64,000 nucleotides of DNA, from the NCBI RefSeq assembly GCF_026151205.1, contig NC_087074.1, forward strand, positions 15,916,962-15,980,961. Reading direction: 5' to 3'. Source of the DNA: Bolinopsis microptera. Lineage: Eukaryota > Ctenophora > Tentaculata > Lobata > Bolinopsidae. This document shows positions 570 to 24,400 of this stretch, piece by piece (positions within the stretch are counted from its first letter, which is position 1; each line of letters begins with the position of its first letter). The notes below the pieces were generated by a model that made no database searches, was not told the origin of the DNA, and worked only from the letters and a program-made list of their open reading frames with translations. The position numbers and the translations under genes were made by a program.

Positions 570-3500
570 ATGGCTGGGCTCCATTATATCCTCTTTTTCA
601 TTTTATACTCGATTGGGCAACCATACAAAGTTGGTCTCTTGTTGAACTCCGAAGAGCAGGATGGGTCCAATGCCATCAAAAGCCTCGCCCAATACACCAT
701 CTCCAAACTAAACAAATCCAACACCAAACTGCAACTGGTAGAACGATACCATGACTCAACATACTTAAACGTCATGAACAATGTTTGTGAACTTATCGAC
801 GAAAATGTTGTGGCTATCATATCTGGGTCAGATTCAACTTTGACGGCGATTCAGGTGAATATGGCAAATCAGTTTCATGTTCCACTTGTTGCTGCGGTGG
901 CTACAAATCCTTTCCTCGAACCCGTCTCTAAGGAAAACTTTGAACTGAGACTTTCACCATCAGACGTATTTCAGAGTCAAGCTATATTCGACTTGTTGAA
1001 GGAGTACAATTGGTACCAATTTTCGATTCTGGCATCAGCAGACGATTACGGGATCAACAGTATCGTGCATTTGCAATATCTGGCCTCGCAAGATGACAAC
1101 TTCAGCATTAGGGACGTCCAACATTTTGATGTAAGAAAAGATCTGTCAGATTCAGAAAATTCTTCTTTCTTTGAAAAAGAGCTTCAACTGATCAAAGATT
1201 CGATAGCCAAGGTTATTGTTCTAAATTGTGATGGAAAGTTCGCCAAAATCATATTCAGGTGAGATATCTTTAAGTTTGCTCGTCTGTAGCATTTTTTGTG
1301 GCTCATAGCTGGCTGGTAGATTTAAACCTAACTTTGCAATATTTATCGAATAACTGGATTTAAATTAAGCACAATTATCTATTTTCAGGGAAGCCGAAAG
1401 AAAGGGCTTGATGGACGAATCATTTGTCTGGATAACGACAGATGCGATCACATCTAAACCAGAAACAATGGCCTATGATGACTTGTCCTACCCTTCCTTC
1501 TACCAAGGATTGATAGGAACGCTGCCTCACTATGGAAAAGGTTCCAAACAATACAAAGATCTGGCAGATGGATACATTATGACTGGTGGTAAATCCTCGG
1601 ATTTGCACATGTCATCTGTAAAAGTTTCTATGGGTCTAGAAATCGTCCATTTCTCTCTAAAAGAGCTTGATGAGGGTGAATGGGACAACTCCCCATCAGT
1701 TAGCTGTAAAACACCTTCTTACTGGGTTGGTGGTGAAGAACTCTTCAGCAAGATGGATGAGAATTTCCAAAACGGAGCATATGACAATTCTGGGGTGGTC
1801 ATTCCAACGTATGACATATTGAACTTCCAAGAAAAGGGCTTCGAGAAGATTGGGAAATGGGAAAATTCCAGTGGTCTTGTAAACCTTGGTAAGGATGAAA
1901 CAATATTACGGTGGGTCGACAGAAAAGATGTTCTATTTAGTGGCAATAAGTATTCACCTCCCAGTGGAATAGGGAACACGCTCACTGGCTATCACCTTCG
2001 AATCGGCATAGTTCCAGAACCACCGATTGCATATTTCGATGAGAAGTGTGGTAATAATTCAAGTCCTGACTGCTGGTACGGCTGGAATCCCGATATCATC
2101 AAAAAACTCCAGGAAGACCTAAACTTCACGTACGAATATGTTCAGCCGGCAGATAATAAATATGGTGGCTTCAACAAGGTAACAAAAGAGTGGAATGGAA
2201 TGATTAGAGACATTCTGGACAGAAAAACAGACTTGACCATAGCTCTGTCAATAAATACTGAGCGGTCAAAATACATTGACTACACTGCTTCTTTCTATGA
2301 GGATCAGGCTGCGTTCATTGTTCATACTAAGACATCCAAAAGTTCATCAAACATGTTCTTTTTCCTGGAACCCTTCGAGTTATCAGTGTGGATAAGTATC
2401 ATTGGCCTAATCCTGGTGATCGCTCTTTTAACCACATTTTTCAGTAAGTTCTCTCCTTTCGGAAAATATGGCAGGACTATCCACGCTATGCAGAGTTGTG
2501 CATGCGCCGAATGTGTGCTGAGGAGAGAAATCAAAGTGGCTAAGAAGTGTAGGTTTGTTGATACGAAGACATATAGTTGTTTGGTGGAGAAAGTAGAGGA
2601 GGACGATGAGATGAACGAGCTCTCTTACTACAACTCAACATGGCTTATTGGAACAGGTTTGATTTTAGGCTACTTATTCTATAATTCAACATGATCAGCG
2701 AACTTCAAGTTTGTAATTGAGGTATTGATAATTAATTCAGCACGATCGTGCGCGTGGATCACTATAATGGGTATAATATTGTTTTTAGCATATCATTATG
2801 ATGTAAACTGTGTTTCAGGTTTTGTTCTGCAAGGGACTGACACACTTCCTACTGCACCGTCTGGACGCTTCCTTCTTTTCATGTGGTGGCTCTTCATCAT
2901 GATTCTCACCTCAATGTACACGGCAAATCTAACTGCTCATCTGACGCTGGATCGTTCTACCGCAACAATTACCAAACTAGACGATCTGTTGAACCAGGGA
3001 GACTATAAGTGGGGACTTATAAATGATCGTAATCTTCAGACCATGATGTCTGATCATGAGGATGAAACATACAACAAAATAGTTAGCAGTGGAGTTGGAT
3101 TGGAAAGTTTAGATGAAGGCATCACAAGAGTTAAAAAAGGCGATTTTGTCTTCATTGATGACAGCTCTGTGCTTACTTTCAATTTCAGGGGAGACTGTCA
3201 AGCTGCACTTACGAAAACAGGCAAATTCAACAACCAGTGGGCATTGGGGACACAAGTAAATTCACCATATTCAGCAGTTATCAACAGCATGTTCCTTCAA
3301 TACCGTGAGAGGGGTTGGTTTACCACCAAATTTGACGAATGGTATAACTCCGCTGATGAAAACATACAGACTTGCTCTTCTTCGGTTGGTAGTGATGCTA
3401 AATTTGGTATCCCCATTTTAGGGGGACTGTTCCTTATTTTAGGTGTTGGAGCTGTAATAGCCTTTGTCACTGTCTTCCTTGAAATACTCTACGTTTCTCA

Positions 3501-3681
3501 CCTAGACAGTATAGAAAAGGGGCAGAGTATCTGGCAATGTTTGTGGAAAAGAATAGTATATAAGTATCGTGAAGTCACCGAAGAGTGGTTTGATAGAAGT
3601 CACAAAAGAGTTGAAGGCCATGATTCAAACGGGTTTGATCGAAACCATAAGGAAGAGGTTATTTCTAACACTTCTATCTGA
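570..3681 (+). CDS. Ionotropic glutamate receptor subunit, array copy 1
   Basis: Ligand-gated cation channel subunit of the plasma membrane. Exons 570-1258, 1389-2656 and 2819-3681 join in frame to 939 aa. Domains: signal peptide (about 1-17), amino-terminal periplasmic-binding-like domain (about 20-400), ligand lobe S1 (from about 432, Arg522 matching the ligand alpha-carboxylate arginine), M1 (about 561-581), an unusual cysteine-rich loop (Cys600, 602, 605, 617, 627), the pore loop, M3 with SMYTANL (684-690), lobe S2 with Asp767 at the ligand amino-group position and the Cys779/Cys838 pair, then M4 (about 852-878). Intron 2 splits the pore loop. The Q/R site is Leu656. The tail ends in NTSI, a class I PDZ-ligand pattern. 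The start is the second in-frame ATG, because only this one is conserved in copies 2 and 3; the ATG at 534 gives 12 extra residues. The FIDDSSVL region resembles GluN1-type and glycine-binding subunits more than AMPA receptors. Confidence 0.93.
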
Positions 3682-4900
3682 AATATTAAAAGTGTTATCA
3701 TACGCTGAAAGTTATGCTTACAATATAGACCTCAAAGGAGTATGAGTTTGTGAAGATAGAAGAACTAGCAAAGTTTGAAGAAACACTCTACGTTCCTTGT
3801 AAGAGTATAGACGAGTGTTGACACGACATTTTGTCTAATGTTGCCACCAATATAATTGATTCTGCCTCCCACTGGGAGGAAGCCGAATTGTTGGCGGATC
3901 ATAACAGTATAACATTTAAGGTTAGATGTCAAAGCAGTTAATCTTATCTATATTTAGGTGAAGCCCTTTAGATGAAAATATTTATATTTTTAAATTTAAA
4001 TTTTTGAGTGTGTAGTTGTAAACCTAATTAGATTCATATTATTTAGAGTAATTTAGTTAAAAAAGATAATTATTGTTTTAAAATAGCTTGAGTCACCTCA
4101 AGAATTGTTTTGCTGAGTAAATAAACTTACTTAATATCAAGAAATAATAAAACATGACTGAAAATTATTCGCTTCACTCAGCTGGGGTTCGTGAAGTAAA
4201 TATTCCGATCGCATATCATGACAGAAATTTATGCAAATTATGAAAATGTTACCGATTCTCTAGCTTTAAAAAGAGTTTTTGATTGGAATATATATAATAA
4301 AAATATCTGTTCATGTAGGAAGTATTAAGATGTAATGACAATGCTGACAATAAATACTTTTTCACAGTATGCCTTTCAATTTATAAAGAGCTAACATCTT
4401 TGCACTGCAATGGTACTGCTCTTGTGTGTGTGCGTGCACTTCAAGGATTAGAATGTGCAAGTTTACGATAGAGGATGGGAAGTCTTTTATCACGCCAAAT
4501 GTTTGCATGCTGATGATTTCAAGGTTCGATCTCAACCAAAATAAAATGTATATAGACTTTACCAATGCTTGGATAGTGACGCAGCGAAGCAAATAAATAA
4601 TGTGTAACCTTGATATATATATCTATAAATAATGTGTAACCTTGACAGATATGGCAAATAGTGCGCACCTGCCCAAAACTTTGTATGTGCTGCAAATTTG
4701 GTGACAGAAAATGCCGTTATTAAGCTTATATTAACTATTTGCCGAGTTTGCAGCCTTTAGGTGTGCCTGTATGTGGTTATACTCTTGACTGATGGATTGG
4801 AACATTCTGTCGAGAAGTCTGTGTGTATAATTGTATGGGATGTTTCTCACGAGGGTGTTGATTAAAAAACAAAGCAAATATAGGGTAAGGGAACAAAAAC
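3682..4900. other. Intergenic spacer after receptor copy 1
   Basis: No gene seen. The first ~100 bases are probably 3' UTR: the text around ATATAGACCTCAAAGGAGTATGAG also follows copies 2 and 3. Near 4580-4650 the phrase AATAATGTGTAACCTTGA is repeated twice. A stretch near 4398-4430 (GCACTGCAATGGTA.TGCTCTTGT) is also found near 16048-16070, so spacers of the array are themselves related. Confidence 0.5.
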
Positions 4901-5470
4901 TTGAATTGTAGCATTAAGTTTCTAAGCTGTTGATTGCTAGGCTAGCAGTTCTTTTCTCCTTGACTGATGTACATTGTACAATCGAATCTGATTGGTCAAT
5001 TTCACTACCTTTTATCACAACATTTGCTTCGAATCCGTGTGGCTATGTGTGTATAATTGTGGGGGATATTTCTCATGAGGGTACTAGGTATTGATTAAAA
5101 AACAAAGCAAACAGGGCAAGGAACAAAAGCTTGAATTGTAGCATTAAGTTTCTAACCTGTTGAGTGCTGTGCTAGCATTACTTTGCGTTCTTATAGTTCT
5201 TTTCTCCTTGACTGCTGTATATTGTACAATCGAATATGATCGGTACCTTTTATCGCAACAGTTGCTACGAATCCGTTCATGCAAACGCCGTATGTGAACA
5301 ATATGGAGCTACGACTCTCCCCGACCGATGTTCATCAAAGTGAGGCTGCATAGTGTATATTATGCACTGTTGAAGGAGAATTCCACATTGAAGACACTTA
5401 GTATTTTGACACAAAGAGAGGCTCAACATGTCTCAACTTCTGGAATCTGGACGCCAAGATTTTGTCAGAT
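4823..5470 (+). pseudogene. Relic of a copy-4-type glutamate receptor gene
   Basis: Two broken, tandem pieces of sequence related to receptor copy 4 and its upstream region. Bases 5222-5470 closely follow exon 1 of copy 4 (about 17722-18040), including TATGTGAACAATATGGAGCT and CCCCGACCGATGTTCATC. About 105 bases are missing internally, ending at GAATTCCACATT, and several frame-breaking changes and a stop are present. Bases 4963-5037 are a shorter fragment of the same exon. The block with AATTAAAAACAAAGC ahead of copy 4 (17105-17240) appears here twice (4823-4935 and 5045-5190). The fragment cannot encode a receptor. Confidence 0.8.
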
Positions 5471-5474
5471 GTCC

Positions 5475-5825
5475 GTTGGCCATTTCGCACATAAGACTAA
5501 ATAGCTTGTCAGTTGTCACTGCTTGTTAGGGGTCGTTCAGTGTTCACATATTACGTAATCAGCCTAAGGGGGAGGGGGGTTTCCGAATGATTATGCTAGT
5601 GTAATTTTGGCACAATAGCTATGTGTAAAACTGATTACGGAGGGGGAAGGGGAGGAGGTTTAAATTGTCCAAAAGGTGATCTCGTAATAATATGTGACCG
5701 GTCCCTTAATTTCCGGATATTAGCACTATACCTTCTGATTAAAAACTACGTAATATTATCTTTCTGCAAAGATTCAATTAATTGTAATTTTCGTTATTAT
5801 ATAATATCTAGTTAGCATACCTCAT
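5475..5825. other. Spacer before receptor copy 2
   Basis: No gene supported. A short open frame around 5621-5815 is low complexity (Gly-rich at first) and has no recognisable domain or conserved neighbour, so I leave it uncalled. Confidence 0.4.
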
Positions 5826-6032
5826 GTTTCGTTTCGAGTTGCACACTATATATAGCAAAACAATACTTTTGTTTAATTGTTCTCTAAATATTTTCCGCTT
5901 AGACAGCTTTTCGTCATGGACTGTTCACTTTAAGCAGCATCACAAATCCTCAAAATATAGAATTTGTTGTGAACCAATGATTACTGAATATCTTTTAAAG
6001 CATTAAAGTTTTGTTTTTACCTCTCAGGTATT
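5826..6032 (+). promoter_or_regulatory. Shared 5' block of glutamate receptor copy 2
   Basis: Second copy of the receptor 5' block, closest to the one before copy 3 (shares GACAGCTTTTCGTCATGGAC). The upstream ATG of copy 1 is present here (5977) but runs into a TAA at 6004, which shows that the conserved translation start is the ATG at 6033. A pyrimidine tract and CTCAG lie just before that ATG. Confidence 0.5.
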
Positions 6033-9000
6033 ATGACTGGGCTCCGTTATATCCTCTTTTTTATAGTAACCTCGATTGGGCAACCATACAAAGTTGGTCT
6101 CTTGTTGAACTCCGAAGAGCAGGATGAGTCCAATGCCATCAAAAGCCTCGCCCAATACACCATCTCCAAACTAAACAAATCCAACACCAAACTGCAACTG
6201 GTAGAACGATACCATGACTCAGTATACCTGAATCTCATGACTAGTGTTTGTGAACTTATCGATGAAAATGTTGTGGCTATCATATCTGGGTCCGATTCAA
6301 CTTTAACGGCGATTCAGGTGAATATGGCAAATCAGTTTCATGTTCCACTTGTTGCTGCGGTGGCTACAAATCCTTTCCTCGAACCCGTCTCTAAGGAAAA
6401 CTTTGAACTGGCACTTTCACCATCAGACGTATATCAGAGTCAAGCTATATTCGACTTGTTGAAGGAGTACAATTGGTACCAATTCTCAATTCTGGCATCG
6501 GCAGACGATTACGGGATCAACAGCATCGTGAACTTGCAATATCTGGCCTCACAAGATGACAACTTCAGCATTAGGGACATCCAACATTTTGATGTAAGAA
6601 AGGATCTTTCAGATTCAGAAAATTCTTCTTTCTTTGAAAAAGAGCTTCAACTGATCAAAGATTCAATAGTTAAGGTTATTGTCCTAAACTGTGACGGAAA
6701 GTTCGCCAAAATCATATTCAGGTGAGCTATATTTAAGTTTATTTGCTTTAAAAAAATCCTTTATCCGAAACTCAGAATCTATTAGCTGGCTTGTAGATTT
6801 AAATTTAACTTTGAAATTTAACCATATCATGTAATCTTACTTGGTTTTACCGAATTAATTTTCAGGGAAGCCGAAAGAAAGGGCTTGATGGACGAATCAT
6901 TTGTCTGGATAACGACAGATGCGATCACATCTAAACCAGAAACAATGGCCTATGATGACTTGTCCTACCCTTCCTTCTATCAAGGATTGATAGGAACGCT
7001 GCCTCACTATGGAAAAGGTTCCACAAAATACAACGATCTGGCAAATGGATACATTATGACTGGGGGTAGATCCTCGGATTTGCGCATGTCATCTGTAAAA
7101 GTTTCTATGGGTCTAGAAATCGTCCATTTCTCTCTAAAAGAGCTTGATGAAGGTGAATGGGACAACTCCCCATTAGTTAGCTGTAAAACACCTTCTTACT
7201 GGGTCGGTGGTGATGAACTCTTCAGCAAATTGGATGAAAATTTCCAAAACGGAACATATGACAATTCTGGGGTGGTCATTCCAACGTATGACATACTGAA
7301 CTTCCAAGAAAAAGGCTTTGAGAAGGTTGGGAAATGGGAAAAGTCCAGGGGTCTTGTTAACCTTGGTAAGGATGAAACAATATCACAGTGGGTTGACAGA
7401 AAAGATGTTCTATTTAGTGGCAATAAGTACTCACCTCCCAGTGGAATAGGGAACACGCTCACCGGCTATCACCTTCGAATTGGCATAGTTACAGATCCAC
7501 CGATTGCATATTTCGACGAGAAGTGTGGCAATAATTCTAGTCCTGACTGCTGGTACGGCTGGAATCCTGATATCTTCCAAAAACTTCAGGAAGACCTAAA
7601 CTTTACGTACGAATATGTTCAGCCGGCAGATAATAAATTTGGTGGCTTGAACAAAGAAACAAAAGAATGGAATGGAATGATTAGAGACATTCTGGACAGA
7701 AAAACAGACTTGACCATAACTATATCAATAAGTACTGAGCGGTCCAAATACATCGACTACACTGCGTCTGTATATGAGGATCAGGCTGCTTTCGTTCTCC
7801 ATACTAGGGCCACCAAAAGTTCATCGAACTTGTTCTTTTTCCTGGAACCCTTCGACTTATTAGTTTGGATAAGCATCATTGGCCTAATCCTGGTGATCGC
7901 TCTTTTGACCACATTTTTCAGTAAGTTCTCTCCTTTCGGGAAATATGGCAGGACTGTCCACGCTATGCAGAGTTGTGCATGCGCCAAATGTGTGCGAAGG
8001 AGAGAAATAAAAGTGGCTAAGAAGTGTAGGTTTGTTGACACGAAGGAATATAGTTGTTTGGTGGAGAAAGTGGAGGAGGACGATGGGGTGAACGAGCTCT
8101 CTTACTACAACTCAACATGGCTTATTGGAACAGGTTCGATTGTAGAATAGTCAACCCAAATTGTTATAACATCTAGAACTCAACTCTGGAGTAATAGATT
8201 GTTCTATTGTATAACCTTCTTTTATAAATTGCAGTAAACTTGAGCTAAATTATAACTCTAGCAATGATCATGATGCTTAATTCAACACGACCGCTTATAT
8301 GATATATTTTTTGTCTCAGGTTTTGTTCTGCAGGGGACTGACAAATTTCCTACAGCACCGTCTGGTCGCTTCCTTCTTTTCATGTGGTGGCTCTTCATCA
8401 TGATTCTCACCTCGATGTACACGGCAAATCTAACTGCTCATCTGACGCTGGATCGTTCTACTGCAACAATTACCAAACTAGACGATCTGTTGAACCAGGG
8501 AGACTATAAGTGGGGACTTTTAAATGATCGTTTTATTCAGAACATGATGTCTGATCATGATGATGAAACATACAACAAAATTGTTAGCAGTGGAGTCGGA
8601 TTGGAAAGTTTAGATGAAGGCATTGCAAGAGTTAAAAAAGGTGGTTTTGTCTTCATTGATGAAAGCTCTGTACTCACGTATAATTTCAAGGGAGACTGTG
8701 AAGCTGCACTTACGAAAACAGGCAAGTTTAACAACCAGTGGGCATTGGGGACACAAGTAAATTCACCATATTCAGCAGTTATCAACAGCATGTTCCTACA
8801 ATACCGTGAGAGGGGTTGGTTAACCACCAAATTTGACGAATGGTATAACTCCGCCGATGAAAACGCACCGACTTGTTCTTCTTCGGTCGGCAGTGATACT
8901 AAATTTGGAATTCCGATTTTAGCAGGACTGTTCCTTATTTTAGGTGCTGGAGCTGTAATAGCCTTTGTCACTGTGATCTTTGAAATACTGTACGTTTCCC

Positions 9001-9167
9001 GCTTAGACAGTATAAAAATGAGGAAGAGTATCTGGCAATGTTTGTGGAGAAGAATAGTGTTTAAGTATCGTGAAGTCACAGAAGAGTGGTTTGGAAGAAG
9101 CCACAAAAGGGTCGAAGATGGGTTAAGGATTCATGCGAATTTATTTCAAACAATAAGCAATAAGTAA
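6033..9167 (+). CDS. Ionotropic glutamate receptor subunit, array copy 2
   Basis: Close paralogue of copy 1. Exons 6033-6721, 6866-8133 and 8320-9167 join in frame to 934 aa; exons 1 and 2 have exactly the same lengths as in copy 1. Domain order is identical: signal peptide, amino-terminal domain, S1, M1, cysteine-rich loop (CACAKC), pore, SMYTANL in M3, S2, M4. The residue at the ligand amino-group position is Glu767 (FIDESSVL) instead of Asp in copy 1, and the Q/R position is again Leu. The C-terminal tail differs: after HKRVED the sequence diverges and ends in ISNK, so the PDZ-ligand-like end of copies 1 and 3 is lost. All splice sites and the frame are intact, so it is probably a functional gene. 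Partner subunits and ligand are unknown. Confidence 0.92.
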
Positions 9168-9580
9168 TTTCTAACACTTCTATTTGAAGTATCGAGATTT
9201 TTATCACAGGCTGATAGTTAACCTTTCAATATAGACCTCAAAGGAATATGAGTTAAAATATTTCCATTTTCCATTTTATGTTTATGTCTATGAGCGTGTA
9301 GTTATAAACCTAATTATCACCTTAATAATCCCAGAATGTGTGTGTGTCTGATCGTCTGTCTGTCTGTCTGTGCGTGTGTAATTTCCGGTCTGTTATATTT
9401 AATAAACGGTAAGAGTTACGGGACTGGTTTTTTCGGTATAGTGCCGACAAAACTCTGACGAAGCCAATAAGCAAATTTTTAAAAAATCGGCCGATGGTTT
9501 GTGGTTTAATTGGTGGTTTTGTACCATAAATGTCAGGCACCGCAATAGAAACATTTTTGAAGAATTCGCAAATTCACACT
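9168..9580. other. 3' flank of receptor copy 2 with a short simple repeat
   Basis: The start resembles the 3' UTR of copies 1 and 3 (ATATAGACCTCAAAGGA.TATGAG). A (GTCT)n/(TG)n-like simple repeat lies at about 9338-9380. No gene seen. Confidence 0.45.
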
Positions 9581-10083
9581 TCATGATCTCTTTAAATGAA
9601 ATAATATTCATGTGTTCAATTTTGTCGAATGAGGGTTTTATTTGATAGTTTATTAATTATTTGATAGGTTTAATAATCGGATCGAGCCAAATCTTATAGA
9701 ATTGTGTTTGGTCATTCAAATTACGCCTGTCCTAAAAAAATGAGAGTTGTAGCTTCTCAGATAACTGATATAATACATTATACGTAGCATAACGAGTTTG
9801 TACATTACGTGTGATCAGGTAGTTGGATTACCTGATCACGCCCGTTAAATTGCAAGGGGACCCAATTAAGGTGCCGTGTCACACAATCACCCAATCGATT
9901 TTTGGTAACGAGATACACTAAATCACAAAATGCTTGATAACTTTGTTATTTCAAATCCATTTTATCCCTTAACTTTTATTCAGATCACATGCAGCAAATA
10001 ATCTGCAAAAATTAGGCGACTAGCTTGTTCGAAAATAAAAATATAGGTGATTTGATATTATATGGGAGTGATCTGAACTATCG
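9580..10083 (+). mobile_element. Dispersed repeat R1, copy 1
   Basis: About 480 bases that align over most of their length with 58460-58935 plus 59225-59340. Shared stretches include TCGAGCCAAAT, TGAGAGTTGTAGCT, CATTACGTGTGATCAGGT, CCCGTTAAATTGCAAGG and TATAGGTGATTT.ATATTATATGGG. The other copy is bounded by an inverted repeat, so R1 is probably a non-autonomous DNA element; no coding frame is seen. A tRNA-derived SINE follows directly. Confidence 0.65.
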
Positions 10084-10245
10084 GCCGGGTGGTGTAGTGG
10101 TATAACGATCGCCTCCCAAGCAGAAGACCCGGGTTTAAATCCGGTCGGATGCAACCCGGCCAGTTACCAAGCTGTGATTTGGTACAGCTTCGGCTGTGGT
10201 ATAAGACCCAACGTATGTAATGTTACTTTTGGCCCCCCTGTATAT
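10084..10245 (+). mobile_element. tRNA-Gly-derived SINE, 5' part
   Basis: Bases 10084-10160 resemble tRNA-Gly with a CCC anticodon: A box TGGTGTAGTGG, anticodon loop CTCCCAA, and a perfect 7-bp outer stem (GCCGGGT with ACCCGGC). The B box is degenerate (GGTTTAAATCC) and extra bases lie between the T arm and the outer stem, so it is not a working tRNA. The following tRNA-unrelated part (CAGTTACCAAGCTGTGATTT, then AGCTTCGGCTG) also follows the head at 59.1-59.2 kb. This copy appears cut short at about 10245. Confidence 0.75.
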
Positions 10246-11780
10246 ATAATAACGTTGCGTTACACGATTGTTTCAAGTTAAACACAACAAATAAATTACA
10301 AGGCTAATATTTTACACTGACATTCCTTACAATTTAGATGTATAATTCTAGAATTACCCGCATAGAAGTTTTTACAATTAGATGAGCAGTATAAATGCGG
10401 CTTGTTGAGCTGGTGATGAGCATAATTGAGGCAGATTATTGAAAATTTTAGTTTTACAACATTTAATAGCTCTGAACCTTCTATCCTGGGAACCCTCTTT
10501 GGGACTACAGTTATGTATCTTCTTTCACACACAGATTCAATGTTGCAGACCGCAGATCCACTCTGCCATCTTAAGAGGCACTCATTCTGACAGCGTTCTT
10601 TCATTTCATATATTCTTTTGATCCATTTCTATCTTTTATAGGCTACCACGTGTAGGTATCTCCCACGTGACAACAACACGTGATGTTCGCCTCTACGATA
10701 TTTGTTTTCATGCTTTTATAAACTCGTATTATGCAATCTTTACACCATATTACTTCACACCACGTTTTAATAAAGTATAAAACAGTATGATTTCATACTG
10801 GTTCATACTTTACAGCTATGGCGTTTTTAATTCAGAGGAATAAATGTTACGAAGGAAATTTATTTCGTTACAATTTTACGGTCAATCCCAGCTTTTTCTC
10901 ATGACCAAGTGACACCAAGCTCAGTGAGTATATGGTCATGGATTCATGACGATACTGGAAACTTGTGGGGTTTACAAGTTATCGTTATGTATCATTAAAT
11001 CATTTAATTATATAAGCATGAAGACCTTATAGTCTTCCCTAAGACCTTATAGTCTTCAACTTCGGATTGTAGGTTGCATGTCTAGGTTTTTTCTTTTATG
11101 TCAAGGGGGAAAATGTGCAGGAGACCACCTACTCCACGATGGCATCTGATACAATACAATACAATACAACATTAGATTCCAACATATGGTGTGTATACTA
11201 GATAAAATACCTGCAAACTATGATATTGTCTGACTATTATAGATCTAACTACAATATGTCTGACTCAATTTTTATCCATTGAGGGATTACAATCGAGCTT
11301 GACAAGTTATTTATTTCCTAAGATTTGCCTTTTTTCGGTTTTTTTAATCAACTATCAATAGTACTATCAATCAACTATCAATAGTACTAAAAGTTGCTGC
11401 TTTATCAACTTGCCATAATATGGTATACGTGGTCAATCTTGCGATCTCGCACCCACCGCACTTAAATCACGCCTAGATGACGTGTTCTTACACTCTTGAC
11501 TCTTGAACGATGTAATTAAACTCTGTAGTCTCCAGCTAAATGTGTGTTGTGAGGGATATTCCCCATGAGGAATTAAAAACAAAGCAACAGGGTAAGGAAA
11601 CAAAAGCGGGACAGACTGGAATGTAGCATTGTTAGCGTACGGTTAGAACTATCCTATTTAGCTGTACAGCAATACTAAGCCTTAGGTAACGGTTAGAACT
11701 ATACCTTAAAATTCCTAACATAATATTGTGTTTGTGAGAACAATCAATCGTATTCGTTATGTCTTGTTAGCATACTTAAT
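10246..11780. other. Intergenic spacer before receptor copy 3
   Basis: No gene seen. Bases 10365-10450 (GATGAGCATAATTGAGGCAGAT) and 11165-11260 (CAACATTAGATTCCAACA) match 16230-16400, the spacer before copy 4. A copy of the upstream block of receptor copy 4 (AATTAAAAACAAAGCAACAG) lies at 11537-11640 with no receptor attached. A short (AATAC)n tract is at 11149-11170. The spacer is therefore a remnant of larger duplicated units. Confidence 0.5.
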
Positions 11781-12009
11781 GCTTCGTTTCGAGTTGCACA
11801 CTATAAACCTATAAACTTTTAAAACAGTTCTGTTCGAAATTAGCTTTTGTTTAATTTTCTTCTAAATCTTTTCCGCTTAGACAGCTTTTCGTCATGGACA
11901 GTTCACTTTAAGCAGCATCACAAATCCTCAAATTATAAAATTTGTTGTGAACCAATGATTACTGAATATCTTTAAACCATTAAAGTTTTGTTTTTACCTC
12001 TAAGGTATT
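11780..12009 (+). promoter_or_regulatory. Shared 5' block of glutamate receptor copy 3
   Basis: Third copy of the receptor 5' block, ending with TTTTTACCTCTAAGGTATT before the ATG at 12010. The 3'-splice-like CTCAG of copies 1 and 2 has become CTAAG here, which still ends in AG. As in copy 2, the upper ATG (11956) is closed by a stop. Confidence 0.5.
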
Positions 12010-15000
12010 ATGGCGGGGCTCCGTTATATCCTCTTTTTTATTCTATCCTCGATTGGGCAACCATACAAAGTTGGTCTCTTGTTGAACTCCGAAGAGCAGG
12101 ATGAGTCCAATGCCATCAAAAGCCTCGCCCAATACACCATCTCAAAACTTAACAAATCCAACACCAAACTGCAACTGATAGAACGATACCATGACTCGAT
12201 ATACCTGAACCTCATGAACAGTGTTTGTGAACTTATTGATGAAAATGTTGTAGCTATCATATCTTGGTCCGATTCAACTTTAACGGCGATTCAGGTGAAT
12301 TTGGCAAATCAGTTTCATGTTCCACTTGTTGCTGCAGTGGATACGAACCCATTCATTGAATCTCACTCTAAGGAAAACTTTGAACTGAGACTTTCACCAT
12401 CAGACGTATATCAGGGTCAAGCTATATTCGACTTGTTGAAGGAGTACAATTGGTACCAATTCTCAATTCTGGCATCGGCAGACGATTACGGGATTAACAG
12501 CATCGTGAACTTGCAATATCTGGCCTCGCAAGATGACAACTTCAGCATTAGGGACATCCAACATTTTGATGTAAGAAAGGATCTGTCAGATTCAGAAAAT
12601 TCTTCTTTGTTTGAAAAAGAGCTTCAACTGATCAAAGATTCAATAGTTAAGGTTATTGTGCTAAATTGCGATGGAAAGTTCGCAAAAATAATATTCAGGT
12701 GAGCTATCTTTAAGTTTATTTGCTCGTCTGTAGCATTCTTTGTGAATCCTTTATCTGAAACACAGAGTCTATCAGCTGGCTGTTAGATCTAAACTTAACT
12801 TCGCAATTGAACCACATAATATAATGTTACTTGGTTTGATCGAATACCTGGACTTAAATTAAGCAAAATCATTTATTTTCAGGGAAGCCGAAAGAAAGGG
12901 CTTGATGGACGAATCATTTGTCTGGATAACGACAGATGCGATCACATCTAAACCAGAAACAATGGCCTATGATGACTTGTCCTACCCTTCTTTCTATCAA
13001 GGATTGTTAGGAACGCTGCCTCACTATGGAAAAGGTTCCACACAATACAACGATCTGGCAAATGCATACATTATGAGTGGTGGTAGATCCTCGGATTTGC
13101 GCATGTCATCTGTAAAAGTTTCTATGGGTCTAGAAATCGTCCATTTCTCTCTAAAAGAGCTTGATGAAGGTGAATGGGACAACTCCCCATCAGTTAGAAT
13201 TAGCTGTAAAACACCTTCTTACTGGGTTGGTGGTGAAGAACTCTTCAGCAAATTGGATGAAAATTTCCAAAACGGAACATATGACAATTCTGGGGTGGTC
13301 ATTCCAACGTATGACATACTGAACTTCCAAGAAAAAGGCTTTGAGAAGGTTGGAAAATGGGAAAAGTCCAGGGGTCTTGTTAACCTTGGTAAGGATGAAA
13401 CAATATCACGGTGGGTTGAAAGAAAAGATGTTCTATTTAGTGGCAATAAGTACTCACCTCCCAGTGGAATAGGGAACACGCTCACCGGCTATCACCTTCG
13501 AATTGGCATAGTTACAGATCCACCGATTGCGTATTTCGACGAGAAGTGTGGTAATAATTCTAGTCCTGACTGCTGGTACGGCTGGAATCCTGATATCTTC
13601 CAAAAACTTCAGGAAGACCTAAACTTTACGTACGAATATGTTCAGCCGGCAGATAATAAATTTGGTGGCTTGAACAAAGAAACAAAAGAATGGAATGGAA
13701 TGATTAGAGACATTCTGGACAGAAAAACAGACTTGACCATAACTATATCAATAAGTACTGAGCGGTCCAAATACATCGACTACACTGCATCTATCTATGA
13801 GGATCAGGCTGCTTTCGTTCTTCATACTAAGGCCTCCAAAAGTTCATCGAACTTGTTCTTTTTCCTGGAACCCTTCGACTTATTAGTTTGGATAAGCATC
13901 ATTGGCCTAATCCTGGTGATCGCTCTTTTGACCACATTTTTCAGTAAGTTCTCTCCTTTCGGAAAATATGGCAGGACTATCCACGCTATGCAGAGTTGTG
14001 TATGCGCCAAATGTGTGCTAAGGAGAGAAATAAAAGTGGCTAAGAAGTGTAGATTTGTTGACACGAAGGAATATAGTTGTTTGGTGGAGAAAGTGGAGGA
14101 GGACGATGGGGTGAACGAGCTCTCTTACTACAACTCAACATGGCTTATTGGAACAGGTTCGATTGTAGAATACTCAACTCATAACTTTTATAAAATCTAG
14201 AACTCAACTCTGGAGAAATAGTTTGTTCTATTGTATACTTGATTGTAACTCTAGCAATGATCATGATGCTTAATTCAACACGACCGCTTATGATATATTT
14301 TTTGTCCCAGGTTTTGTTCTGCAGGGGACTGACAAATTTCCTACAGCACCGTCTGGTCGCTTCCTTCTTTTCATGTGGTGGCTCTTCATCATGATTCTCA
14401 CCTCAATGTACACGGCAAATCTAACTGCTCATCTGACGCTGGATCGTTCTACCGCAAAAATTACCAAACTAGACGATCTGTTGAACCAGGGAGACTATAA
14501 GTGGGGACTTTTAAATGATCGTTTTATTCAGAACATGATGTCTGATCATGATGATGAAACATACAACAAAATTGTTAGCAGTGGAGTCGGATCGGAAAGT
14601 TTAGATGAAGGCATCACAAGAGTTAAAAAAGGTGGTTTTGTCTTCATTGATGAAGGCTCTGTGCTCACGTACAATTTCAGGGGAGACTGCGAAGCTGCAC
14701 TTACGAAAACAGGCAAATTCAACAACCAGTGGGCTTTAGGAACACAAGTAAATTCACCATATTCAGCAGTTATCAACAACATGTTTCTACAATACCGTGA
14801 GAGGGGTTGGTTAACCACCAAATTTGACGAATGGTATAACTCTGCTGATGAGAACATGCCGACTTGTTCTTCTTCGGTTGGCAATGATACTAAATTCGGA
14901 ATTCCGATTTTAGCGGGACTGTTCCTTATTTTAGGTGTTGGAGCTGTAATAGCCTTTGTCACGGTGTTATTTGAAATACTTTACGTTTCCTGCCTAGACA

Positions 15001-15173
15001 GTATAGAAAAGGGGCAGAGCATCTGGCAATGTTTGCGGAGAAGAATAATATATAAATATCGTGAAGTCATTGAAGAGTGGTTTCATAGAAGTCACAAAAG
15101 GGTCGAAGACCATGATTCAAACGGGTTTGATCGAAACTATAAGGAAGAGGTAATTTCTAATACTTCTATCTGA
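12010..15173 (+). CDS. Ionotropic glutamate receptor subunit, array copy 3
   Basis: Third close paralogue. Exons 12010-12698, 12883-14156 and 14311-15173 join in frame to 941 aa. Exon 2 is 6 bases longer than in copies 1 and 2, a duplicated AATTAG-like hexamer that inserts two residues (SVRISCK instead of SVSCK) in the late amino-terminal domain. The ligand amino-group position is Glu769 (FIDEGSVL), the Q/R position is Leu, and the M1-M2 loop carries CVCAKC. M3 has SMYTANL. The tail ends EEVISNTSI, giving a PDZ-ligand-like end as in copy 1. Copy 3 groups with copy 2 in ligand site and S1 sequence but with copy 1 at the C-terminus, which suggests gene conversion or unequal exchange within the array. 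Confidence 0.92.
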
Positions 15174-16715
15174 AGTGTTAAAGGTTTTATCACATGCTGA
15201 TAGTTATGCTTTCAATATAGACCTCAAAGGAGTATGAGTTTGTGAATATAGAAGAACCTAAGTTTGAAGAAACACTATACGTTCCTTGTAAGAGTATTGA
15301 CGACATTTATGGTTTACGGTGAGGCAGTATCATGGCCCTTATCACCAATGTTATTTATCTTGCATAGATTTTGTGCAATATGACATTGAAATTAGATGCA
15401 TAGCTGATAGCAGTTGATCTTATTTATAATTAGGATGAAAATAGTTCAAATTCCTTTAATTCCTGTATGATATTGATACAATTGAAGTGATTTTTGGTGG
15501 TGTATTGTTAATCTTTGCTCGTTGTATTATGTAGTTCTACCAACGCACTTACCGATCTTTGAACCGAGTAGTGATTCCAAGTGGGAGCTTGATAGGGGAA
15601 CTTCCTCTACAATGAATTCAGTACTGAAGTCAGATCACTACATCATAAAATCGATCGAAGAATCATAAACTATCTTAAATCTTATTTCATCTTTATCGGG
15701 ATTATTCATAAATAATATATAATATAATGTATCTCTACTTCTTATTTGCATCTGATAAATCATTTATATGAGTCTATCCCCTGTCTCTAAAGTAATTCTA
15801 AAATCAAAGTGTATAAAATATAGACGTACTATTACTAAAGTACTAAACTACGAAGTAAGTAGTCTACAGCAGAATTGATATTTTCTGTATAATAGATTGT
15901 TTTTTTGAGATTATGCAGTTGTTTGTTGCTAAATATGTTCACTTCACCATTTCGAATCGGTCTGACACATTGATTAATACCCGACACTTGTGTCAGTTGC
16001 TAACCATTATATGTGCGGTATACAAGCACATTATTTCTCGTTACGATTGCACTGCAATGGTATTGCTCTTGTCTGCATGCGTGCACTGCGCGGCGAGGAT
16101 TATAATCTTATTTTATAACTCCTTTATTACGCCAATTGTCTATAACGTTGCATACCACAATGCAATATTCTACACCAACTTTCCTAACGATTCAAGATGT
16201 TTAATTTTAGAATTATCCTCATTGAAGTTTTTACAATAAGATGGGCAAAATGAATGAGGTCAGTTGAGCTGCCGATGAGCATAATTGAGGCAGATCCAGA
16301 GTATTCAGTTACTATTGTTAGTTTACAACATTAGATTCCAACACATTGTGTGGTAAAATTCCTGCGAACTGTTATACTTATATTGTCTAACTATACCATA
16401 ACTGTAGCTATTTTTATTAACAAGTGACTGAGTGTAAACAAAAATAGGGACACCGAAACACCAGATGACCAGTAAATTTGGCATAGCAATTAAATCAGGC
16501 CCTTAGTGCACCTATAAGTGAAGCGATGCTGCAACCAAGGCATGCTAGGTTTTACCCTTACCAAAGTTATGTACATGTCGATCTTATCTAATTATACACA
16601 GCAGTACCAAATTACTAAGCTGATCGAAGGAATAACGGCCAATGTTGCGATTAATTGCGGTGTTTAGTCAATCGAGCGATTTCGCACCCATCGCGCTTAG
16701 GGCAGAGTGCCCAAT
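15174..16715. other. Intergenic spacer after receptor copy 3
   Basis: The first ~130 bases match the 3' flank of copy 1 and are likely 3' UTR. The rest shows no gene. Bases 16048-16080 match 4398-4430 and bases 16230-16400 match 10365-10450 and 11165-11260. An open frame at about 15913-16239 has no recognisable domain. Confidence 0.45.
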
Positions 16716-17005
16716 GTCATGACAATTTTACGACAATTTGTGACAAGATGTGACAATATGTGCCAATATATGACAATATACGACAATATTTGACATTATA
16801 TGACAATATACGACAATATATGACAGTACATGACAAGATGTGACAAGATTCGACAATAAAAGACAAGATTTGACAATATACGAAAATATAATATGACAAT
16901 ATATGACAAGATTTGACGATATTTGACAACATATGACAATATACGACAATATATGACAACATATTATGACAGTATACAACAAGATTAACAAAATGTGACA
17001 AACCG
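16716..17005. repeat. Degenerate 9-10 bp minisatellite (TGACAATAT-like)
   Basis: About 30 imperfect copies of a unit such as TATGACAATA, with variants TGACAAGAT and CGACAATAT. The decay of the units indicates age. Open frames across it on the minus strand (repeating CHIL/SYIV residues) are artefacts of the repeat. Confidence 0.85.
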
Positions 17006-17098
17006 TGGGAAAATGGGCACTCTCGGTTCCTACCCCACTTATATCGTACCGTTGTGTTACACTCTTGACCGATGTATTGAAGCAGTTCTGTAGCCTAG

Positions 17099-17442
17099 CT
17101 AAGTGTGTGTTGTGTGGGATATTTCTCATGAGGAATTAAAAACAAAGCGAACAGGGTTAGGACAACAAAAGCGAGTGACTGGAACCGTAGATTAAGTTTC
17201 TAAGCTGTTGGGCTAACATTACTTTGCGCTCTTGTAGTTGTTTCCTTTTCGTCTATAATGGTAAATAAATTATAAACCTTGTATCTAAAAAATTGTTTCC
17301 ATTTTGAATAATATGCAGTAATTCTCGTTTGAATTTTGCTTGGCTACGTTTTGCATCTAATTATCAATCAACTAATTTTGTACCCCCTAGGGCCTCTGGT
17401 AACTTGGTAACCTGGTAACTTGGTAACCTGGTAATCTGAGAT
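17099..17442 (+). promoter_or_regulatory. Upstream block of receptor copy 4
   Basis: Contains TGTGTGTTGTGTGGGATATTT and GAGGAATTAAAAACAAAGCG, a block that also occurs at 4823-4935, 5045-5190 and 11537-11640. Immediately before the start codon is a short repeat of GGTAACYT (17397-17430). I infer a promoter or 5' UTR shared by copy-4-type genes. Confidence 0.45.
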
Positions 17443-20400
17443 ATGCTGATTAGATATATTCTCGTCCTCAAACTTGCATTTCATTCCATCGCAGAACTCA
17501 TCCCCTTCAAAGTAGGCCTCCTTCTCGACTCTAACGATGAAGCGGAATCAAATGCGATTAAAAGACTGGCTGACTTCACAATCTCTACCATGTACTGGAC
17601 CTTACAGTTGGAGGTCCAGTATCACGACCAGACGTATCTCAGTATGATGGGAGGAGTTTGTTCCCTCATTGACCAGGATGTCGCTGCTATTATATCTGCT
17701 TCAGACTCGTCCTCGACTGCTATACAATCGAACCTGATTGGTCAATTTCAAATACCTTTTATCGCAGCAGTTGCTACCAATCCGTTCATGGAAACGCCGT
17801 ATGTGAACAATATGGAGCTACGACTCTCCCCGACCGATGTTCATCAAAGTGAGGCTGTATATGCACTGTTGAAGGAGTTTTTATGGTTTGACTTTTCCAT
17901 TCTTGCGTCTTCTGACTCTTTTGGAATAAGAAGCACTGTTCGATTACAGTATCTCGCATCGCAAGACATAGAATTCCACATTAAAGACATTCAGAACTTT
18001 GATACAAAGAGAGACTTGTCTCAACCTTCGGACGTCAAGGTTTTTTCAAAAGAACTGGAAGTGATCAAAGATTCTCTTGTCAGAGTTATCGTACTAAGCT
18101 GCCATGGACGGTTTGCCAAACGGATTTTCAGGTAAGAATCTCATTAGCTTTTCTTGTAATTATGTTTTTCTAGTGCTCTAAAATGACATTGATAAGTTGT
18201 ACATAGTAAGTTTCTAGTAGTTACTAACCTTAAATTATCAAAATAATGATTAAGTATATGTTCTAAAATATGGCGTAGTTATCAAATATGCAGTTTGGCT
18301 AACACAATGCTTTCCACATTTCCAATAACTTCAGTTAAACGTTAACCAGTGCCACTATCCTACAGTGAAGCAAAAGAAATGGGATTGATGGCTAAAGATT
18401 ACATATGGATCACACTAGATGGGGTGACAGCACGACCAGACACCCTGACACATGGTGACAGATCGTATCTGTCATATTATAAAGGAATATTCGGCACCAC
18501 TCCCCACTATGGTAAAGACTCTGGTGAATACAGCGATCTAAAGGATGCATACGTGTTGAATGGAGGGCTTTCAACAGATTTAACGAGGGCTTCTGTCAAA
18601 GTTTCAGAAGGTCTCAAACTTATTCATTTTTCGCTTCTTCGACTCGGAGATATTGAAAGAGAAACATTGAAGGAGGTTAGATGTGGCAAGTTAAACACCT
18701 GGGGTGCTGGTCAACAATTGTACTCCAATATGAAGAAAGATTTTTCTGGAAGGCAGATTAGCAGTATAACTGGAATTGAACATTTTCCGACTTACGAAAT
18801 TATGAATTTCAAGTCTGATGGTTTTGAAAGAGTTGGGTTCTGGACATATGAAACTGGGCTTCTTGATTCAGTCGGCCAAAAGGTAAAATGGCGAAGCAGA
18901 AAAGACCTCACTTTTATTGGTAGTGATACACATCCACCAACTGGACTCGGCAGCTTAGAAGGGTACCACCTACGGATCGGCATCGTAGAATATCCACCTA
19001 CCACTTATTTTGTTAACTCTTTAGAGTGCGAGAAAGATCCATCTCGACCAAGGTGCTGGTATGGCTGGAGTCCCGAAATCTTCACGAGACTTGCCGAAGA
19101 CCTTAAATTTACATACGACTATGCAGTAGCACCTACAAAAATGGTTGGTGGCACCTCCGAATCAGATTCCTGGAGCGGATCCGGAACATTAATGGGAGAT
19201 ATCATAGACAGAAAAACTGACATCACAATACCTATATCCATGACATATGACCGTGCAAAGCATGTCGACTTCACAGCTCCACTCCATGAAGACTCTGCAG
19301 CTTTGGCCATGTATCCTGCCATTGGAAGTTTCGCTTCATCAGCAAACATATTCTTTTTTCTTGACCCTTTTGAGATGTCTGTCTGGGGAACTATCTTACT
19401 ACTTATATTTGGTATTGCCATTCTTACTAATTTCTTTAGTAAATTTTCCCCCCTCGGAACATATGGTGAGAAACTCCATGCTATGAAAACTTGCCCTTGC
19501 AAAAAATGTGTCCTGAGGAGAAGGGTAAAAAAGGTTGTCAAGTGCCAGGTAGATGAGGGTGAGGAGGACGATGGTATGAACGACCTCTCTATCTACAACT
19601 CAAACTGGCTCATTGCAGCAGGTTTAGTAAATATAGAGGAATGTTGAGCAAATTTTATTGTTGTTTGTAAACTCAGTCAAAAACGATTGTTTACCCGTTA
19701 GGAGTAAGGTTCGATATTTTATTAATTCAGACAAAATAAGCAGTTCCTAAGCTGAATTGCTTTATTTTCAGGGTTCGTGTTACAAGGGGTAGATGTTCTC
19801 CCGACTTCTCCATCTGGAAGAATTCTACTTTTGACGTGGTGGCTCTTCATAATGATCATATCTGCCATGTACACAGCCAATCTTACCGCCAGCTTGACAG
19901 TGGAATCAGCGGTAAAGACAATTAACAATTTCAATGAGTTGCTTTCGCAAGAATACTACGAATGGGGTGCCCTTGAAGGCGATTTACTATCAAGTCAATT
20001 AAAGAACAGCACAGAAGAAGAGCATAGGGATATATACACTAGAGGTAAAAAGATCATTACAACAGATGTGGCAGCGAAAAAAATAAAGGAGGGACGATTT
20101 GTGTTCGTTGGGCCAAGGACTCTCCTAGAGTTCGTACTCAAGGATGACTGCGAAAAAATAGTGGTCGATACGACATCGTATCAAAACCAGTGGGCTTTCG
20201 CAGTGCCATTTCATGCACCATATCTTAAGCCGATAAATAAAATGTTCATTACCTACACAGAAGAAGGATATTTCACTCAAGGATTCGAGAGGTGGAAAAG
20301 TGGTGAAGAAGGAGGTGAGACATGTCCTGTGGAGTCTGACGAGATCGGGAGTGACACAACTTTCACTCCTCAGCTCCTAGCCGGACTCTTCATCATTCTG

Positions 20401-20775
20401 GCTGGTGCTGTTGGGTGTTCACTTACCATATGCTGTTTGGAATTTCTTTTCGTCGCATACTTAGACAGCAGGAAAGGTAAGGGCTTTTGTGAATGTCTGG
20501 GAACAAGGATCTATCTGAAGAAATGTGAAGTGATGGAGGAATGGTTCGGCTTGGATCGAGGTAAATCAGCTAGAAATAACATAATTTTTTACAACCCTGA
20601 CGGCACAGATGATAAGCCTATAGAAGTCCCCCACTCATCGGGCAGCAATCGTTCCCCTTACCACTACGCTAACTCAAATGGTGGGATGATAAGTCATCGA
20701 GCTTTAACCACTCAAGATCGTCCTTTTACGGAGGAGGGTAATTTCATCCTTAAACAGAAGGATGCATATGCGTAG
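17443..20775 (+). CDS. Divergent ionotropic glutamate receptor subunit, array copy 4
   Basis: Older paralogue of copies 1-3 with the same architecture. Exons 17443-18131 (again exactly 689 bases), 18366-19621 and 19772-20775 join in frame to 982 aa. Signal peptide, amino-terminal domain, S1 (TYDRAKHVDF keeps the ligand-carboxylate Arg), M1, cysteine loop (CPCKKC), pore, AMYTANL in M3, S2 and M4 are all present. At the ligand amino-group position, where copies 1-3 have Asp or Glu, it has Pro763 (FVGPRTLLEF). The Q/R position is Leu652. The cytoplasmic tail is about 60 residues longer and ends DAYA, with no PDZ-ligand pattern. Losing the acidic residue would be expected to weaken binding of an amino-acid ligand, so the subunit may bind something else or serve as a modulatory partner; that is inference. 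Confidence 0.92.
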
Positions 20776-21473: not shown

Positions 21474-24400
21474 ATGTCTGAGCGGCTCTCCTCAAATAAC
21501 TTTCTCTCCTCCTCGGAGCTGAAAGTTAAAAACAAAACACGGGTCTCATATAACAATCAAAAAAGGTAATCTACGTTGCTTCAGAGTTCAGACGGTTATT
21601 TGGTAGAAATTGTCCAATTCATTGCGCTTTTGATAGGTACTGTTTACCGCTCGAGCTGGCAGTCAACTACCGCGCTGTTACCATGGTTACCACAACTACC
21701 GCGCTGTTACCATGGTCACCACAACTACCGCGCTGTTACCATGGTTACCACAACTACATACAATGCTGTTACCATGGTTACCACAACTACCGCACTGTTA
21801 CCATGGTTACCACAACTACCGCGCTGTTACCATGGTTACCACAACTACCGCGCTGTTACCATGGTTACCACAACTACCGCGCTGTTACCATGGTTACCAC
21901 AACTACCGCGCTGTTACCATGGTTACCAAAACTACCGTGCTGTTACCATGGTTATGGAATACTCTGACATTCCAATTCAGTGTGTCTTTAGAAGTTCATA
22001 AAAATGCAGCTGATATTGGCTCATATGTCATTCCACGGATAATTTTGTAGGCCCTATTGAGTATTGGTAGATTATTGGAAAATCACATTGAAGTTTCTTT
22101 CCTTTTAGAATAATTTTATAAATAATTGCAGGACCGAACATGAGAGTTCTCGAGAGGAACTGAACCAATCTGTAAACAAACAAGAAGCTCAGGAGTTGAA
22201 TATCAGAAAAGTTAATGAGCGTTTGGAGAATGAAAAGGTAAGTGTTGCCTTAGATTTTTAATACAATTGAATCATTGTACAAGAACGATTTTCGTCTTAT
22301 TAGATACGATTTTTTATTCATTTGTATACTATTTATTATAATGTGTACTTTAATACGAGGAGATGTTTTCATGATATCTTTTCTTATTTTTGCTTTCGGT
22401 TACTAATACTAATATCTAAAGATAAAGTGGAGCGGAAGAGAATGTCGATATTTGAATGAGATACGTGATATTGAGTCCAGAAATCAAGAACTCAAGGTAT
22501 GCAACAGCATGTCTACTACGTTATAAAGCAGTTCTATTGTTCAGATCGTGGTGGTCTTAATAATATGTTAAATACTCAAGCTCAGGCATTCCTAATGTTA
22601 ACTATTATGAAAACCAGAATCAAATTCATTAATTTCTGTTCCATACAAATAACAACTGTGGTAGAACTATGGTCGGTCACCCAGAACATTGCTCTGTGGT
22701 ATCGTATTTGCACATTTTACTTATTAAATGTCTAGTTATATATCCTTTACAGTATACTCCGTTATTTTAACAGGTCAAATTAGAGGAGTTGACGATGCAC
22801 TACAAAACAGAGATTCTAGAATTGTCCTCAAGATTGGGCAACAAGATCTCTGCTACCGAGGTGTCTGGAACTTTCAGCAGTGATATCCAATATATTACCC
22901 ACCTTTTCAACGATTGTAGCACTCGTTTAAATAGATCACTTTTGAAATACCACCAGTCTATGAGTATGAACTAACCTAATAATTGAATCTAAGGAGGAGA
23001 ACAGTCAGAAGATGACCGCTATGGAAGAGAGTATAAGGTTATTGGAGGAAGTTCAGACAGATTACCAGGAAGTGATCAGATACGCTGTCCTGATCATACA
23101 ACAGTCATTGTCACGACTCACTCCCAGCAGCCACTATAACCCATGTTCCCATATCAGGGTCAGAGCAGTCATTTCATTATTGTCATATTGTTATCTAACA
23201 TGGCCCCAACAATCACTCAACAATCATATCGAGCTTTAACATATTTAACATATTTAACATATTTAACATATTTAACATATTTAACATATTTAACATATTT
23301 AACGTATTTAACATATTCAACATATTTAACATATTTAACATATTTAACATATTTAACATACTTAACATATTTAACATATTTAACATATTTAACGTATTTA
23401 ACATATTTAACATATTTAACATATTTAACGTATTTAACATATTTAACGTATTTAACATATTTAACATATTTAACATATTTAACGTATTTAATATATTCAA
23501 CATATTTAACATATTTAACATATTTAACATATTTAACATATTTAACATATTCAACATATTTAACATATTTAACGTATTTAACATATTTAACGTATTTAAC
23601 ATATTTAACGTATTTAACATATTTAACATATTTAACGTATTCAACATATTTAACGTATTTAACATATTTAACATATTTAACGTATTCAACATATTTAACG
23701 TATTTAACATATTTAACGTATTTAACATATTTAACATATTTAACATATTTAACGTATTTAACATATTCAACATATTTAACATATTTAACATATTTAACAT
23801 ATTTAACATATTCAACATATTTAACATATTTAACATATTTAACATATTTAACATATTTAACATATTTAACATATTTAACATATTTAACATATTTAACATA
23901 TTTAACATATTTAACATATTTAACATATTTAACATATTTAACATATTTAACATATTTAACATATTTAACATATTTAACATATTTAACATATTTAACATAT
24001 TTAACATATTTAACATATTTAACATATTTAACATATTTAACATATTTAACATATTTAACATATTTAACATATTTAACATATTTAACATATTTAACATATT
24101 TAACATATTTAACATATTTAACATATTTAACATATTTAACATATTTAACATATTTAACATATTTAACATATCACAGTGGGCTACCATGCTAGCATAGGCC
24201 TAAAATCGACTTTCTTAAATTTCTTTGAAAATAAGCTTTCCTTATTGTAAAACGCTAGCCCGATTTCATGCAAGAAACCGTAATTAAAAACTTTGCAAGA
24301 TGCCAAAATGGCGTCGCGTGAAAAAATAGCATTTTTCACTGTCAAGAAATTTTGCCTTTTTTAGCCAAAAATTGCCTAATATTTATTATTTCGGGCTAAA

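Follow-up and report, generated by a model that had tools for sequence, protein, structure and literature searches.

The question raised by this locus was what, if anything, the fourth of four neighbouring receptor genes could still sense. The genes, called GR1 to GR4 here, lay on the plus strand of a 64,000-nucleotide stretch (the window), which was part of a 21.28-Mb contig (21,284,423 bases) of the ctenophore Bolinopsis microptera, and they encoded ionotropic glutamate receptors (iGluRs) of the epsilon type. GR4 lacked the acidic residue that anchors the amino group of a bound amino acid, and judging by its residues it was a good candidate for a receptor component that lacks conventional amino-acid sensing.

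Pocket residues are numbered by GluA2 throughout, and the acid in question, at position 705, belongs to the pair that holds the backbone of a bound amino acid in place (PMC6307864). The original prediction had read this position as Asp, Glu, Glu and Pro across the four paralogues, and the gene models, codons and alignments confirmed this; its start coordinate, 3163, lay one codon late, which was immaterial, and the residue calls stood. The codons at position 705 were:

3160 to 3162, plus strand: GAC, Asp767 of GR1
8661 to 8663, plus strand: GAA, Glu767 of GR2
14652 to 14654, plus strand: GAA, Glu769 of GR3
20113 to 20115, plus strand: CCA, Pro763 of GR4

In all four genes this codon was residue 114 of exon 3. 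HMMER alignments with GR1 and GR4 as queries placed the site opposite the Glu of FLMES in GluK2 and the Glu of FIDEG in the Mnemiopsis receptor ML032222a, with no gap nearby, which supported both its role as the amino-group anchor and the absence of an acid from it in GR4. No other acid of GR4 fell at this site in the GR4 alignments, where the neighbouring acid of the siblings was gone as well, position 704 being Gly. AlphaFold models of exon 3 agreed in predicting the site just after the same strand in GR4 and GR1, at the next helix in GR4 and two residues before it in GR1. These models had low confidence (mean predicted local distance difference test score of 50.3 for GR4 and 54.5 for GR1, and 52 in the block of ten residues that includes the site); they were hardly informative and were used for local strand and helix order only.

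The acid was one of several pocket residues that had changed. At positions 423, 450, 478, 480, 485, 653, 655, 704 and 705, in this order, the pockets of the array genes and of L020, a gene 1.7 Mb from GR4 on the same contig, read as follows:

GR1: E Y A S R R L D D
GR2 and GR3: D F T S R R I D E
GR4: Y V P S R D L G P
L020: S F A A R D V D T

GR4 retained the upper-lobe anchor for the ligand carboxyl, namely Arg485 and Ser480. The lower-lobe half of the pocket and both positions of the salt bridge described below (the lock) differed from those of the siblings: Pro705 and Gly704 replaced acids, Tyr423 replaced an acid (Glu in GR1), Asp653 an Arg and Val450 an aromatic residue, and position 478 was Pro. 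The Asp of L020 at 653 aligned with Asp653 of GR4 only through a one-residue gap. The original prediction had proposed that the fourth copy binds a non-amino-acid ligand or is an unliganded modulatory subunit. As a proposal from the residues this was fair, because GR4 had no acid at 705 or 704.

The retained anchor could suit a ligand free of an amino group, for example a simple carboxylate, whose carboxyl would be gripped by Arg485 as in the acid-sensing ionotropic receptors (IRs) of insects. Arg485 and Ser480 were indeed kept while 653, 704 and 705 changed, and the acid-sensing IRs of flies keep the Arg, with Asp or Glu retained in 10 IRs only, according to the available part of PMC7882480. 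However, Asp653 and Glu422 had no obvious fit to an acidic ligand, and GR4 was not an IR, having an N-terminal domain (NTD) and grouping with ctenophore iGluRs, so that we regard such a ligand as unlikely. A gamma-amine would not be spared by the loss of the acid, because gamma-aminobutyric acid was docked onto the same acid in delta receptors (accessible portion of PMC10861852).

The first three copies had been taken to show, by their Asp and Glu, that the array spans both classic states. As a statement about ligands this was not supported, as Asp and Glu interchanged freely among these receptors. On a tree of 25 rows at least 6 changes were needed for Asp, Glu and none, and 2 for acid and none. 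The rows with Arg653 comprised 3 with Asp and 5 with Glu and the other acid-bearing rows 4 and 6, so the choice between the two acids was untied to Arg653. Both solved ctenophore ligand-binding domains (LBDs) that we found, ML032222a (PDB 4yki) and PDB 4zdm, had Glu at 705 together with Glu423 and Arg653. We take 4zdm to be PbiGluR3 of Pleurobrachia. GluN2 subunits, which bind glutamate, also have Asp at 705. In ML032222a and PbiGluR3, glycine is reported to be trapped by way of the Glu423/Arg653 salt bridge, and the placozoan GluE1-alpha-A, with Asp705, was gated by glycine and became glutamate-gated once three other residues were changed (both from the available part of PMC12226733); Arg653 with Glu423 is also the published ctenophore glycine pattern (PMC6307864). 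An equation of Asp with glycine-type and Glu with glutamate-type receptors was therefore rejected, given the Glu of the solved glycine-lock LBDs, the Asp of GluE1-alpha-A and the 6 changes on the tree. For the first of these reasons, and because there was no tie to Arg653 and 6 changes stood against 2, the difference among GR1, GR2 and GR3 is, as far as such comparisons tell, a conservative swap and ordinary variation with no clear ligand meaning.

GR1, GR2 and GR3 look glycine-type, of the lock kind, because all three kept Arg653, an acidic residue 423 and a hydrophobic residue 655; the pair was Glu423/Arg653 in GR1 and Asp423/Arg653 in GR2 and GR3, where Asp423 would have to do the work of Glu423. 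GR4 (Tyr423, Asp653) was without this pair. As a separate observation, GR2 and GR3 (6033-9167 and 12010-15173) combined Glu705 with Asp423, and Asp705 was combined with Glu423 in GR1, in a Mnemiopsis protein and in L013, a further array member about 55 kb before the window that was 92% identical to GR1; the longer acid was thus on opposite pocket sides in the two sets.

A whole-genome Lig_chan search gave 32 matches, and position 705 was read at the loci for 29 resolved genes, a count that takes L024 and L030 (which lie 270 bases from each other on C10) as one gene (if two, one more is unread) and leaves out two Lig_chan matches on C4 at which 705 was not readable. The S1-family search also gave 32 matches, largely from the same genes. 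Asp or Glu stood at 705 in 24 of the 29 genes, and the five without an acid were GR4 (Pro), L020 (Thr) and L008, L014 and L026 (Gly in each, aligned by eye in L008 and L014 and in an ungapped tblastn match in L026). The acid loss of GR4 is thus not unique in this genome. As 24 of 29 genes kept the acid and the sister of GR4 was also without it, the pattern pointed to more than chance. The Gly705 genes made up a second set, L008 and L014 on C2 and L026/L035 on C4, with Arg485 kept in L008.

The tree was unrooted, with no row known to be non-ctenophore, and L014, L026 and any IR were left out of it. On one side of a branch with support 100/99 were 22 of its 25 rows, including ML032222a and all four array genes. 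GR4 and L020, the latter with Thr in place of the acid and no lock pair, were sisters (100/99) and adjoined a clade of L025, the Mnemiopsis protein P0002 with L023, and GR1/L013/GR2/GR3. P0002 and L023 paired with support 94/87 and the forks above had 86/79 and 99/97, the join of L025 being the weaker one (86/79). L008, the sole Gly-type row, lay far from GR4, although its branches were long and its exact place unsure. Since the GR4/L020 branch was outside the group that holds P0002 and its Bolinopsis counterpart L023, the lineage probably predates the Mnemiopsis-Bolinopsis split. Two peculiarities were seen at loci on C8. L034 (L025, C8:14.85 Mb) was GR1-like with a frame break of exon 3 in S2 near 653, either a pseudogene or an assembly error, and at L033/L038 (C8:962-972 kb) a 52-base minisatellite that lay between the S1 exon of L023 and its pore exon read like an exon-3 start (LQGTDTLPTNP).

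The reading that we favour, with a probability of roughly 0.45, is that GR4 works as a subunit which amino acids do not gate in the conventional manner, mainly a modulatory, ligand-insensitive partner in heteromers. In the older sister lineage of GR4 and L020 the acid for the amino group would have disappeared and the lower-lobe side of the pocket been remodelled, with Arg485, gate and pore preserved. GR4 would accordingly form part of a channel without being gated canonically by free alpha-amino acids. More tentatively, it may join subunits like GR1, GR2 and GR3 in a modulatory capacity, the neighbouring array genes being possible partners, and either its own residues or its neighbours would then hold its clamshell. 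The gate and pore residues were kept in GR4. The SYTANLAAF-like gate in M3 was AMYTANLTASLT in GR4 and SMYTANLTAHLT in the other three, the Q/R/N site was Leu with an Asp (Asp590) four residues further in all four, and the exon structure, NTD and Cys-rich loop of GR4 matched those of its siblings. After this reading we rank a leak channel and an amine-free ligand about equally, then an amino acid held through Asp653, and decay last. It is conceivable, as a long shot, that the salt bridge of the GR4/L020 lineage was turned round, with Asp653 facing Tyr423 (Ser423 in L020) in a hydrogen-bond lock that would shut the clamshell unliganded and make a ligand-free, self-locked subunit; if so, GR4 would set the gating of its glycine-type neighbours.

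That GR4 is maintained was suggested by the unbroken frames of GR4 and L020 and by the ratio of nonsynonymous to synonymous divergence (dN/dS) between them, which was below 1 throughout and 0.10-0.29 in six of seven parts, although the ratios are rough because dS was near saturation in places. This roughness is one of several points that weigh against the favoured reading. Another is the M4 part, with a dN/dS of 0.78, and the array also held a relic:

5243 to 5419, plus strand: decayed remnant of a GR4-like exon 1, lying between GR1 and GR2, 89.6% identical in nucleotides to GR4 over 5244-5378

The M4 value and this fragment would fit a GR4 that is becoming a pseudogene, its Pro a product of neutral drift. 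Against this stood the intact frames, the GT-AG intron ends, the low dN/dS of the other six parts and the existence of a second intact gene without the acid, L020, which together make decay very improbable. Stretches similar to the upstream flank of GR4 (about 17056-17246) occurred at 4776-4932, 5042-5205 and 11499-11621, and with the exon-1 remnant they hint at lost GR4-like copies in the array.

In GR4 and L020 the LBD had diverged faster than the NTD, to an unusual degree for S2. The ratio of S2 to NTD protein distance was 3.27 for GR4/L020 (bootstrap 2.41-4.41) and 0.58-1.88 in 14 other pairs, which share rows and in which the upper bound of L004/L005 reached 3.19. Taken as proof of relaxed ligand constraint this contrast was rejected, because dS was also raised in S2 (2.06 versus 1.02 and 0.84 in two NTD parts). 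Much of the contrast may stem from gene conversion of the NTD or from saturation.

Further counterpoints were that Asp653 was one acid remaining in the lower lobe of GR4 and that L020 also retained Asp704. Being near the site, Asp653 could in principle take over from the lost acid, and GR4 might then still bind an amino acid or amine through it or through Glu422. The Asp653 of GR4 was aligned with an Asp in L020, and Glu422 was also present in ML032222a. In the solved relatives, however, residue 653 pairs with 423 of the upper lobe and not with the ligand amine (PMC6307864), and we found no example of an acid at 653 or 422 taking over the amine role; we consider this improbable. GR4 was also absent from the returns of the protein searches, in which no public full-length model of it was seen. 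No GR4 orthologue was found in another ctenophore among the best-sharing candidates scored from these searches, a weak negative given that one Mnemiopsis protein was returned and full-length ML032222a was not.

Among solved structures, the closest to the GR1 LBD were ML032222a and 4zdm (193.9 and 166.5 bits), followed by kainate 2 at 91.3. They were also closest to the GR4 LBD (94.5 and 71.8 bits), with delta-2 next at 46.4. Whole-protein queries had kainate 2 as top match, the ctenophore entries being LBDs only. The Glu423/Arg653 lock of the two solved domains was shared by GR1, which differed from them in its Asp at 705, and occurred as Asp423/Arg653 in GR2 and GR3. GR4 was unlike them in its Tyr423/Asp653 and in having no acid at 704 or 705.

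Loss of the acid at 705 is already known from other animals, and GR4 is not the first case. The available part of PMC12226733 describes natural losses in otherwise normal subunits, as in GR4, for the placozoan AKDF1 and some GluE1-alpha receptors. AKDF1 of Trichoplax, with Tyr705, carries a constitutive leak current that is blocked by ligands, most by glycine. By this precedent GR4 might be a constitutively active leak channel, whose clamshell shuts unliganded and which ligands inhibit; GR4 has Pro, a non-polar ring residue, at the same site. We hold this to be doubtful: Pro differs from Tyr, and GR4 differed at several further pocket sites. AKDF1 belongs to the AKDF group; GR4 lay among ctenophore receptors and had Asp653. 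In the accessible text of PMC6307864, 28 of 122 non-classical iGluRs had 485 and/or 705 changed and were predicted not to bind amino acids; a backbone position is altered in them as in GR4, and they were especially common in amphioxus Phi and NMDA-Cnidaria. Insect IRs lost the Asp or Glu with or without the Arg, and they recognise other ligands or act as co-receptors (available parts of PMC7882480 and PMC2924276). They form a protostome family, whereas GR4 has an NTD and grouped with ctenophore iGluRs in a tree without IR rows. Most members of the insect-type IRs have no full NTD. By analogy, three published types of outcome may follow such changes, namely no predicted amino-acid binding, a leak, and other ligands or co-receptor roles. 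No literature title on the Bolinopsis array was found, mostly at the level of titles and abstract starts, and because of this limited view we do not claim acid-less ctenophore iGluRs as unreported.

The gene models gave three exons per gene with GT-AG introns and proteins of 939 (GR1), 934 (GR2), 941 (GR3) and 982 (GR4) amino acids. The GR1 product was identical, letter for letter, to the public B. microptera protein P0001. GR1, GR2 and GR3 were 90-94% identical among themselves and 47% identical to GR4. The modelled exons were:

570 to 1258, plus strand: GR1 exon 1, signal peptide and first part of the NTD (also by P0001 identity)
1389 to 2656, plus strand: GR1 exon 2, rest of the NTD, S1, M1 and Cys-rich loop
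2819 to 3681, plus strand: GR1 exon 3, pore, M3, S2, M4 and tail
6033 to 6721, plus strand: GR2 exon 1
6866 to 8133, plus strand: GR2 exon 2
8320 to 9167, plus strand: GR2 exon 3
12010 to 12698, plus strand: GR3 exon 1
12883 to 14156, plus strand: GR3 exon 2
14311 to 15173, plus strand: GR3 exon 3
17443 to 18131, plus strand: GR4 exon 1
18366 to 19621, plus strand: GR4 exon 2, with S1 residues Tyr423, Val450, Pro478, Ser480 and Arg485
19772 to 20775, plus strand: GR4 exon 3, with S2 residues Asp653, Leu655, Gly704 and Pro705

ANF_receptor (the NTD), Lig_chan-Glu_bd and Lig_chan followed in this order above the Pfam cut-offs in the two proteins scanned, GR1/P0001 and GR4. Ctenophore epsilon iGluRs have a Cys-rich loop between M1 and M2 and a pair of cysteines in loop 1 of the LBD (PMC6307864). 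All four genes had cysteines at both places, and the loop of GR4 was shorter by 10 residues.

Elsewhere in the window, an open frame of 1040 amino acids at 30141-33263 had the look of a LINE-type endonuclease and reverse transcriptase, recognised by eye. Also by eye, two frames like seven-helix receptors and two like immunoglobulin-domain membrane proteins were seen at 26860-28065, 41767-42885 and 43831-48691 (minus strand). A nine-base tandem repeat, TTAACATAT, ran for about 1 kb at 23217-24199 and was open in several frames.

For ctenophores, Asp versus Glu at 705 appeared unfit for guessing the ligand of a receptor. With three putative glycine-type genes beside an acid-less relative, the array would offer a ready set for telling apart a silent modulator, a leak channel and a receptor for a different ligand.

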